Part shown: positions 28,881 to 36,147 of the stretch, piece by piece
How the letters are laid out: each line of letters opens with the position of its first letter
How positions within the stretch are numbered: the first letter of the stretch is position 1
DNA from: Methanohalophilus euhalobius
GTDB lineage: Archaea; Halobacteriota; Methanosarcinia; Methanosarcinales; Methanosarcinaceae
DNA length: 64,000 nt
Reading direction: 5' to 3'
NCBI RefSeq assembly: GCF_900215215.1
Contig: NZ_OBDR01000001.1
Location: 62,001 to 126,000 of the forward strand
Translations under genes and position numbers: made by a program
Notes under the pieces: model-generated
Database searches by the model: none
What the model was told of the DNA's origin: nothing
The model's input: only the letters and a program-made list of their open reading frames with translations

Positions 28881-29198
28881 ATGCAAAAAAAACTCCAGGG
28901 GATTGTCAGCCTTGGCGAAGCTCTATCGCATCCTCTGCGACTGAAACTTATATGTATGCTTGCAGACAGGGAATGGTATGTATATGAGCTTGCCAAAGAA
29001 CTCGATGTTTCCAGACAGGTACTGTATCTTCACCTGAAACGCCTTGAGAAGGCCGATATTGTTGAAAGCGATCTTCGTCTGGAAGAAGATGATATGCGTG
29101 CCAAGAAATTCTTTAAGTTAAAGGAATTTGATATAGAATTGGACGTTAAGGACCTTAAAAACATTTTTGAGACCGAGACAATCACAAAAAAGAATTGA
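28881..29198 (+). CDS. ArsR-type winged-helix transcriptional regulator
   Basis: A 105-residue HTH regulator. GEALSHPLRLKLICMLADRE and the recognition helix SRQVLYLHLKRLEKADIVES are typical ArsR/SmtB features. A basic wing (DMRAKKFFKLKEFDIEL) follows. The CxCxxC metal site of classical ArsR is absent; one Cys is in LICML. It therefore probably senses something other than metal, or does so through another site. It ends the cluster that begins with the secreted protein and may bind the dyad at 27638. It converges with the NaPRTase gene, with three bases between them. Confidence 0.85.
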   Translation: MQKKLQGIVSLGEALSHPLRLKLICMLADREWYVYELAKELDVSRQVLYLHLKRLEKADIVESDLRLEEDDMRAKKFFKLKEFDIELDVKDLKNIFETETITKKN

Positions 29199-33677: not shown

Positions 33678-33735
33678 TTTCAACACAAATTGAAATGGAC
33701 AGGTATATATACCATAGTTTCAATTAATATTGAAA
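33678..33735. promoter_or_regulatory. Double operator TTTCAA-N6-TTGAAA around a TATA box
   Basis: Two perfect dyads of the same form, TTTCAA-N6-TTGAAA, lie at 33678-33695 and 33718-33735. Their centres are 40 bp apart, close to four helical turns. The TATA box GGTATATATACC (33702-33713) is between them. The second dyad ends 13 bases before the permease start. The geometry suggests cooperative binding by a dimeric repressor, for example of the ArsR type, controlling the permease operon. Confidence 0.65.
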
Positions 33736-33748
33736 TAGAGGTTGCACA

Positions 33749-34792
33749 ATGCCTGACCAATCATTAATTTATCACCTTGCTATCGTAGGACTGGGATCTG
33801 TACAGGAGTATCTGGCACTACATGTACTGCTATGTCTGGTGCCGGCCTTTTTCCTGGCCGGAGCTATAGCATCCCTTTTTTCCAAAGAATCTGTACTGAG
33901 ATTCTTTGGCAATGAGACCCCAAAATACATTTCCTACCCCGTTGCTGCAGTTTCAGGCTGCCTACTTGCAGTATGCAGCTGTACTGTACTTCCGCTTTTT
34001 GCAGGAATCTATCGCAGAGGTGCAGGAATCGGGCCTGCAACTACCTTCCTGTTCTCGGCACCGGCAATAAATATCCTGGCAATTGTCTACACCGCAAAAA
34101 TCCTGGGATATGACCTGGGAGTGGCAAGAGCTGTAATTGCAATCATTCTGTCAATCGCTATTGGACTTACAATGGCGGCAGTATTCGAGCGCCACAGGGA
34201 AAAAAAGGAAGGAATAAAAAATTTTGGTGAAGAAAGGCATGCTCACAGTGCATATCTTTTCCTCCTCCTTCTGGCAATCCTCATTGTTCCGGAGATACTT
34301 ACAGAATGGATTTTGCTGCTAGCCGTGGAAACTGTGCTTGTTATTATAACAGTATTCCTGTCATTCAACTGGTTCCGTAAAGAGGAATTGAAAGACTGGA
34401 TGGCAGAGACATGGTTCCTGGTTAAACAAATAGCACCTCTCCTTTTGCTTGGTGTTTTCTTTGCAGGTATTATGGTGGAACTGCTCCCGGCAGAATATGT
34501 GGCTGCAGTGGTTGGAGGAGCATCATTCGGTGCAAGTTTCATAGCATCGGTTGCCGCAGCATTGATGTATTTCTCCACCCTGACAGAAGTGCCTATAATC
34601 AGCGCCCTTACAGAACTTGGAATGGGAAGAGGGCCGGCCCTGGCAATGTTGCTTGCAGGCCCGGCACTGAGTCTTCCGAATATGATCGTAATCAGCAGGA
34701 TAATGGGAGCAAAAAAAACTTCCCTTTACATAGCTTTGATAGTAGCAGTTGCATCAATCGCCGGCTTTATATTCGGCCTTTATTTTGTATAA
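33749..34792 (+). CDS. Permease of the ArsP/DUF318 family
   Basis: A 347-residue membrane transporter with about eight to ten helices in two halves. The conserved first-half signature is AVSGCLLAVCSCTVLPLFAG, with YRRGAGIGPATTFLFSAPAI after it. The second half has LLLGVFFAGIMVELLP and STLTEVPIISAL. Members of this family export organoarsenicals or other soft-metal compounds, and the CSCT cysteines are conserved. It is the first gene of an operon with a metallophosphoesterase, a thioredoxin-like protein and a putative zinc-binding protein. This gene set commonly travels with ArsR-regulated permeases. Confidence 0.88.
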   Translation: MPDQSLIYHLAIVGLGSVQEYLALHVLLCLVPAFFLAGAIASLFSKESVLRFFGNETPKYISYPVAAVSGCLLAVCSCTVLPLFAGIYRRGAGIGPATTFLFSAPAINILAIVYTAKILGYDLGVARAVIAIILSIAIGLTMAAVFERHREKKEGIKNFGEERHAHSAYLFLLLLAILIVPEILTEWILLLAVETVLVIITVFLSFNWFRKEELKDWMAETWFLVKQIAPLLLLGVFFAGIMVELLPAEYVAAVVGGASFGASFIASVAAALMYFSTLTEVPIISALTELGMGRGPALAMLLAGPALSLPNMIVISRIMGAKKTSLYIALIVAVASIAGFIFGLYFV

Positions 34793-34803: not shown

Positions 34804-35502
34804 ATGAGACTCCTTGTGATTTCGGATATACATGGGAATATGAAAGCCCTGGAAGCTGCAATGGAAATTCCCCATGACGAGGTTATCTGTCTGGGGGACC
34901 TGGTTGATTATGGCCCATCACCCAGAGAGGTAATCGATTTCATGATGGAAAACAATATTCCCGTTATAAAGGGAAACCACGATAGTGCAGTTGCAACAGG
35001 AATTGATTGTGGCTGCAGTTATGAAATCAAGCATCTTTCAATTGCCACCAGGGATTACACAAAAGATCAGCTGGATGATAGCCAGCTGGATTTCCTGAAG
35101 AATCTTCCTGCGAAAATTAAAAAAGAATACAGAGGAGGCAGTGTATTATTTACACATGGAAGTCCCAGATCCTTTTATGAGTATATAAAACCACAAACAC
35201 CTGATGCAGAAGTACAGGAAATGCTGAAAGGAGTTGAAGCGGATATGCTGGTGGTCGGCCATTCCCACATTCCAATGACAAGGAATGTTGGAAATATTAC
35301 CATTGTAAATCCCGGATCAGCAGGACAACCACGGGATGGCATACCCCGGGCATCCTGTGCGGTATTGGATACCGATTCGATGGATTTCAAAGTATACAGG
35401 CTGGAATACGATATGGAAAGTGTAACGGACAAAATAAGAGAAAGAATGCCCCACTGTGATGAACTTATAGCAATACTGGAAAATGCAGGCGTAAACAAAT
35501 AA
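34804..35502 (+). CDS. Metallophosphoesterase, YfcE type
   Basis: A 232-residue calcineurin-like phosphodiesterase. The metal ligands are all visible: SDIHGNMKALEAA, GDLVDYGPSP, GNHD, FTHGSP and GHSH. A C-terminal strand region (CAVLDTDSMDFKVYRLEYD) is typical of YfcE-type proteins. It is cytoplasmic and its natural substrate is unknown. GAGGT precedes the start, 11 bases after the permease stop, so the two are cotranscribed. Confidence 0.93.
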   Translation: MRLLVISDIHGNMKALEAAMEIPHDEVICLGDLVDYGPSPREVIDFMMENNIPVIKGNHDSAVATGIDCGCSYEIKHLSIATRDYTKDQLDDSQLDFLKNLPAKIKKEYRGGSVLFTHGSPRSFYEYIKPQTPDAEVQEMLKGVEADMLVVGHSHIPMTRNVGNITIVNPGSAGQPRDGIPRASCAVLDTDSMDFKVYRLEYDMESVTDKIRERMPHCDELIAILENAGVNK

Positions 35503-35540: not shown

Positions 35541-35771
35541 ATGAAAATAGAAATTCTTGGAACCGGATGTGCAAAGTGCAAGAAGACCTTTGAAGTTGTC
35601 GAAAAGGCAGTAAGTGAAGCTGGGATTGAAGCCGAGATCACAAAAGTTGAAGATATAAACAGTATTATGGATTATGGTGTAATGGTAACACCCGCAGTCG
35701 TTGTAGATGGTGATGTAAAGATTGCAGGCAAGATTCCTTCAGTCGATGATGTAAAGGAATGGATACAATAA
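35541..35771 (+). CDS. Thioredoxin-like small redox protein (TM0996/MTH895 type)
   Basis: A 76-residue protein, MKIEILGTGCAKCKKTFEVV, with a CxxC redox site at residues 10-13 and the cis-Pro strand VMVTPAVVVDGDV. This is the compact glutaredoxin-like fold common in methanogens and often found beside permeases of this family. The start at ATG 35541 follows GGAGAAAATCAA; the upstream Met at 35523 is not needed. It probably provides reducing power or sulfur/metal transfer for the operon. Confidence 0.9.
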   Translation: MKIEILGTGCAKCKKTFEVVEKAVSEAGIEAEITKVEDINSIMDYGVMVTPAVVVDGDVKIAGKIPSVDDVKEWIQ

Positions 35772-35784
35772 CCAGAGGGAAAAT

Positions 35785-36147
35785 ATGACCGATAATAACT
35801 GTTGTTGTTCTTCAGTAGTAGGAATATTCCCCTGTTCGGGAGGTTCCAACGTAGGCCAGCTGGCAAATCAGGCAGCAATAGAAATGACCAAAAATGGCAA
35901 GGGAAACATGATGTGTACAGTAGGCATCGGTGGCCGTATTGCAGGCCTTATGAAATCAGCAGAAGGAGTTGATGAGATCGTGGCTATTGATGGATGCCCG
36001 CTAAACTGTGCGAAGAAAACCCTGAAAAATGCCGGGATCGATGTAAATGAACACGTAATCATAACCGAACTTGGCATCAAGAAGAACAAGGATCTGGATC
36101 TCAAACAGGAACAGGTTAATGAAGTCCTTGAAAAAATCAATTCTTAA
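35785..36147 (+). CDS. Putative zinc-binding protein, DGC domain
   Basis: A 120-residue protein with the DGC-domain signature AIDGCPLNCAKKTLKNAGID. Further cysteines are at the N-terminus (NCCCSS, FPCSGGSNVGQL) and in MMCTVGIGG. The family is annotated as putative zinc binding; no function has been established. It is the last gene of the permease operon, with AGAGGG before the start and a 13-base gap after the thioredoxin-like gene. The abundance of thiols suits a soft-metal handling role. Confidence 0.85.
   Translation: MTDNNCCCSSVVGIFPCSGGSNVGQLANQAAIEMTKNGKGNMMCTVGIGGRIAGLMKSAEGVDEIVAIDGCPLNCAKKTLKNAGIDVNEHVIITELGIKKNKDLDLKQEQVNEVLEKINS

Follow-up and report, generated by a model that had tools for sequence, protein, structure and literature searches.

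Among described systems, the closest counterparts of the locus presented here are the bacterial ArsR/SmtB systems, such as the R773 and chromosomal ars systems of Escherichia coli, in which a small winged-helix ArsR protein with a CVC motif is associated with palindromic operators at arsenical-efflux promoters, often next to arsR. In methanogens, a comparable arrangement is represented by MsvR of Methanosarcina and Methanothermobacter, a repressor whose inverted-repeat boxes beside the BRE/TATA elements block the promoter (PMC3729527). For the transported substrate, the reference is ArsP of Campylobacter jejuni, a PF03773 methylarsenite efflux permease that coexists with Acr3; ArsP moves methylarsenicals out of the cell in their trivalent form, and in methanogens the methylation of metalloids can accompany methanogenesis as a side reaction (reviewed in PMC6205960).

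The window considered here is a 64,000-nucleotide stretch of the Methanohalophilus euhalobius genome (genome G000, contig C18, positions 62001-126000). It contains a permease promoter that resembles the bacterial ars systems in having an arsenical efflux transporter under its putative operators, here an ArsP_1 permease, with an ACR3 exporter under a third copy of the same dyad. It differs from them in having an archaeal TATA/BRE promoter, two operators that bracket the TATA box, a repressor gene that is unlinked, and an operon in which ArsP is accompanied by a metallophosphoesterase (MPE), an ArsE-like thioredoxin and a DGC protein. Unlike C. jejuni ArsP, the methanogen permease has other operon partners and a putative export function, and unlike the present dyads, the MsvR system has the motif TTCGN7-9CGAA, a V4R redox domain and another regulon. 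An open literature search found no paper on the dyad motif or on ArsR control, an arsenic regulator or an arsenic operator in Methanosarcinales, and returned no match for ArsEFG. We consider it very likely that the two dyads are the operators of a dimeric, metalloid-responsive ArsR/SmtB repressor, encoded on the same contig at about 419.57-419.91 kb, which would control the arsP-MPE-thioredoxin-DGC operon by double occlusion and be released by arsenic.

Architecture of the arsP promoter and operon

Exact matches to TTTCAA-N6-TTGAAA occupy positions 33678-33695 and 33718-33735, 40 bp apart from centre to centre, just as the initial annotation had reported. Their occurrence is far above chance: 0.02 exact dyads are expected in the 64-kb window, two or more were reached in 0 of 100 shuffles, and the whole 1.94-Mb genome holds three matches, two of them at this promoter, against none for a reversed-pattern control. 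The same annotation called the dyads identical, which is true of their half-sites but not of their 6-bp spacers (CACAAA vs TTAATA). About 22 bp separates the two dyads and includes GGTATATATACC at 33702-33713; the palindromic shape of this segment is not kept in aligned promoters, in which the TATA box alone is retained. The features of the promoter and operon are as follows.

33678-33695, no strand assigned: upstream dyad (putative operator 1), TTTCAA-CACAAA-TTGAAA, exact match; its centre lies 21 bp 5' of the TATA centre, a distance kept in most family promoters, and it adjoins the expected BRE
33704-33711, plus strand: TATA box TATATATA, contained in GGTATATATACC and identified by sequence; aligned promoters show a TATA-like element at the matching position
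33718-33735, no strand assigned: downstream dyad (putative operator 2), TTTCAA-TTAATA-TTGAAA, exact match, over the expected initiation region; relatives keep a dyad between TATA box and gene start
33738-33742, plus strand: Shine-Dalgarno-like GAGGT, identified by sequence, 6 bases 5' of the permease ATG
33749-34792, plus strand: ArsP-type permease, 347 aa (PF03773 ArsP_1, 1e-80, 271.5 bits vs a cut-off of 32.3)
34804-35502, plus strand: metallophosphoesterase, YfcE-like, 232 aa (PF12850, 7e-27; TIGR00040), in the same position in relatives and thus a conserved operon member
35541-35771, plus strand: small thioredoxin-like protein of the MTH895/ArsE family (PF13192; TIGR00412, 112 bits vs a cut-off of 62)
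35785-36147, plus strand: DGC-domain protein, 120 aa, with a Cys-rich N-terminus (PF08859, 2e-38)

The distance from TATA box to transcription start is well established for archaea, and on this basis the start is predicted at about 33733-33735, so that the downstream dyad would cover the initiation region while the upstream dyad would abut the BRE. A sigma-70-type promoter scan was set aside as uninformative because the host is archaeal. The nearest named relatives of the permease are Methanohalophilus proteins, 93% and 87% identical. The initial annotation had correctly listed the permease, the thioredoxin-like protein and the DGC protein as operon members but had overlooked the metallophosphoesterase gene between the first two. 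In this genome, no arsR gene lies in or beside the arsP operon.

Conservation and spacing of the dyad pair

A search for two dyads separated by 10-40 bases matched 79 of 393 genomes from the phylum, and the reversed control pattern matched none of them. Most genomes of the family have several exact dyads, the reversed control being found few times or not at all, and many of the pairs are exactly 40 bp apart. Among the upstream regions of 18 arsP orthologs in a separate genome collection, all from Methanosarcinales (Methanohalophilus, Methanolobus, Methanococcoides, Methanomethylovorans, ANME-2 and unclassified Methanosarcinaceae), in which dyads were counted with 0-2 mismatches, both dyads are present in 16, spaced 37-40 bp, and one dyad in the other two; none was found upstream of three bacterial arsP homologs. 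The flanking sequence has diverged while the dyads are unchanged, which indicates that the dyads are under selection. Judged from this comparison of sequences, the paired arrangement is a conserved regulatory element across the host's order, and such deep conservation supports the operator function that had been proposed for the dyads.

The spacing itself had been read initially as a sign of looping of the DNA or of cooperative repression that depends on helical phasing. This reading draws on the fact that 40 bp is close to four helical turns, but orthologous promoters place their dyads 36-40, 44-46, 48 or 51-53 bp apart according to lineage, with no helical periodicity, and the short stretch between the dyads of the present promoter would not accommodate a classical loop. 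Since these spacings are not multiples of the helical turn and the phase is not kept, looping is unsupported, and we regard it as most improbable. Cooperative binding of repressor at the two dyads is possible.

The fixed element is instead the distance between upstream dyad and TATA box. In nearly all promoters of the family, oriented by arsP, the two centres are 21.0 bp apart, and this holds whether the downstream dyad lies 16, 18 or 19 bp past the TATA box; two ANME-type promoters give 23 bp by the same scoring rule, and inspection of the pair sequences gives 21 bp for unrelated MFS promoters as well. Some other families place the downstream dyad 31 bp past the TATA box at the same 21-bp upstream distance. 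This constancy, set against the variable downstream distance, might be taken to mean that the upstream dyad also activates transcription through contact with TBP/TFB, with repression left to the downstream dyad. However, still other families have an upstream distance of 16-19 bp, the single-dyad promoter on contig C17 has one of about 17 bp, the constancy may reflect common descent, and ArsR proteins are typically repressors; activation is therefore very unlikely. Under a further reading, which we consider rather doubtful, the TATA box would be gripped on its two flanks by the same ArsR dimer, the upstream site being held at exactly two helical turns (21 bp) from the TATA centre. ArsR could in that case act directly on TBP/TFB, possibly as repressor and promoter-positioning factor at once, throughout the methanogens and ANME archaea.

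Steric occlusion by two dimers is the simplest mechanism. With one repressor dimer beside the BRE/TATA elements and another covering the initiation region, TBP/TFB and RNA polymerase would be unable to assemble. Such two-dimer occlusion would resemble, in outline, the action of MsvR at its own promoter (PMC3729527). Trivalent arsenic, as As(III) or perhaps methylarsenite, would then bind the cysteines of the CVC motif, where the DNA-binding segment begins, whereupon the repressor would be released and efflux induced; we infer both regulator binding and repression, together with the identity of the inducer and the transcription start.

A candidate repressor encoded at a distance

Among the small open reading frames beside dyad pairs, one ArsR/SmtB family recurs, and its C-V-C motif is invariant in 11 aligned sequences. 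Searched with a profile of these dyad-adjacent ArsRs, six families show a member no more than about 625 bp from a pair, while each genome of 2-4 Mb has two to four profile matches; by our estimate, adjacency at this distance by chance is far below one percent per locus. The profile was built partly from the same loci, and hence the exact adjacency count is somewhat circular, although this does not affect the identity of the family or the fact that it recurs in several lineages. Linkage of arsR to the pair or to the operon is seen in relatives, for example at four loci, and the most telling of these (L138) has DGC, Trx, MPE and ArsP genes on one side and DUF6951 and ArsR genes on the other, diverging from one pair that is common to both. 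In three of these six families, distinct from that of the host, a pair spaced 51-53 bp lies beside, and often between, the ArsP and ArsR genes.

The ortholog in M. euhalobius is unlinked. It is the single close relative in this genome and the best match to the profile (E 3e-41, vs 2e-19 for the next paralog), falls together with dyad-adjacent ArsRs in clades supported at 98/95 and 96/94, and scores above the cut-offs of PF01022 (47.4 vs 22 bits) and NF033788 (70.2 vs 55 bits). Its CVC motif (PLCVC) lies in the DNA-binding segment, without a third cysteine next to it, and its gene stands by itself, next to a gene resembling archaeosine-type tRNA-guanine transglycosylase. A locus of the L138 type appears to have been split in three in this genome, into the arsP operon with both dyads, a DUF6951-Usp-ACR3 operon with one, and the lone arsR. 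No good dyad was found at the promoter of this arsR; there is only the 2-mismatch TTTGAATGGTAATGGAAA (L084 1430-1447), just 5' of the gene, possibly a weak autoregulatory operator. A 2-mismatch TTTGAATGGTAATGGAAA is also found upstream of arsR in genus mates. The expectation that the repressor is encoded elsewhere, and that it is of the ArsR kind, thus gains support from gene neighbourhoods in relatives and from the unlinked ortholog here, and the paired dyads most probably provide two binding sites for an ArsR repressor whose gene lies 324 kb away.

Binding by some other regulator, with the ArsR neighbours incidental, is quite unlikely; the proteins to be considered would be MarR-type, MsvR or Lrp regulators, or another of the 13 ArsR-type HTH proteins that score above the curated cut-off in this genome. 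HTH_5 proteins are indeed numerous in the genome, and an ArsR-like HTH is encoded 4.5 kb upstream of the operon (28881-29198), but a single ArsR family recurs beside the pair in each of the six families mentioned above. The nearby protein, an ArsR-like winged-helix protein of 105 aa whose gene follows small membrane-protein genes, is a poorer candidate, as it scores weakly against the dyad-adjacent profile and groups outside the dyad-associated clade. A paralog on contig C14, at 97 kb, is likewise a poorer candidate in that it precedes its own SO_0444-type Cu/Zn permease. MsvR is ruled out as the binder, since its motif (PMC3729527) differs from that of the dyads.

The cognate regulator may differ between lineages. 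A second clade of CVC-containing ArsRs is represented at six loci of two genera, g5 and g14, and the g5 genomes have paired dyads with no main-clade ArsR listed, their best ArsR belonging to the second clade. Either the operator is recognised by ArsRs of both clades, or g5 has exchanged the cognate regulator for another.

The putative regulon and the nature of the inducer

The gene directly 3' of the pair usually encodes an ArsP permease, and within the family the same operon then follows. Other genes under the pair encode an ACR3 arsenite exporter at one locus and an MFS transporter with a SAM methyltransferase at two, and single dyads elsewhere precede ACR3 or Trx-DGC genes. In M. euhalobius, the third exact dyad (C17:112992) is upstream of the DUF6951-Usp-ACR3 operon, whose ACR3 scores above its curated cut-off (369.8 vs 282.8 bits); this combination recurs with a dyad in two genus mates and, with DUF6951 not listed, at two further loci. 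All three exact sites in this genome are thus at arsenic-type efflux operons, and frequent occurrence at unrelated sites, which the initial annotation had named as evidence against its proposal, is not seen here. One repressor probably controls both the arsP operon and, via the single dyad, DUF6951-Usp-ACR3.

Among nine related genomes the picture is more mixed. About a quarter of their 38 exact dyads are inside genes and eight are intergenic without an obvious arsenic link, while about two-thirds of the intergenic ones, by our tally, are at arsenic-type genes; given these intragenic and non-arsenic sites, a single dyad alone is weak evidence. One-mismatch dyads, with 34 genome-wide vs 11 for the control, are too noisy for widening the regulon. 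In two genomes (G001 and G002), an exact dyad also precedes an FmdE-like gene, next to which comes the gene for a TauE/SafE-like permease; this locus is possibly a further regulon member. The DUF6951 protein (PF22263; L064 6600-6914) is found repeatedly under the same dyad, beside ArsR or ACR3, and may be arsenic-related.

Metal specificity is the weakest step of the argument, as arsenic specificity rests on the presence of ACR3 in the same regulon. Proteins of the ArsR/SmtB family respond to a wide range of metals, and PF03773 permeases include Cu/Zn exporters; moreover, the two curated NCBIfam subfamilies that best match the permease, both partially and below their cut-offs, are the Cu/Zn (SO_0444) and organometal (SaoE) types. 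An ArsR/SmtB repressor at the dyads could therefore respond to a soft metal other than arsenic or to thiol-reactive stress (Cu, Zn, Cd, Hg, Sb or polysulfide), with the permease not an arsenical exporter. Against this, both in M. euhalobius and in relatives the same dyad precedes genes for ACR3 arsenite exporters that score above the curated cut-off, and the genome has a separate permease of the Cu/Zn type (L085, C14 at about 97 kb, 356-1812). The latter belongs to the same superfamily and appears to share an operon with an ArsR gene of its own (MCVCELSE motif), but it scores above the SO_0444 cut-off, has no TTTCAA dyad, and is paired with an ArsR of another lineage. We consequently judge a different inducer unlikely. 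The soft-metal character attributed to the operon at the outset is borne out by these ACR3 genes, and they favour an arsenic role.

Implications

The element described here is a real, conserved double operator of the ArsR type, with a named candidate repressor predicted to bind it. For the Methanosarcinales, the analysis provides a defined operator, a putative regulon (the arsP operon and DUF6951-Usp-ACR3 and, in relatives, ACR3, MFS-methyltransferase and Trx-DGC genes) and one candidate repressor. Methylation of metalloids by methanogens would give a reason for the export of methylarsenite, as a rationale rather than as evidence. How methanogens handle arsenic influences the speciation of this element in anoxic soils and sediments, and the putative regulon ties several uncharacterised genes, those for the DGC protein, DUF6951 and the metallophosphoesterase, to arsenic-type control.
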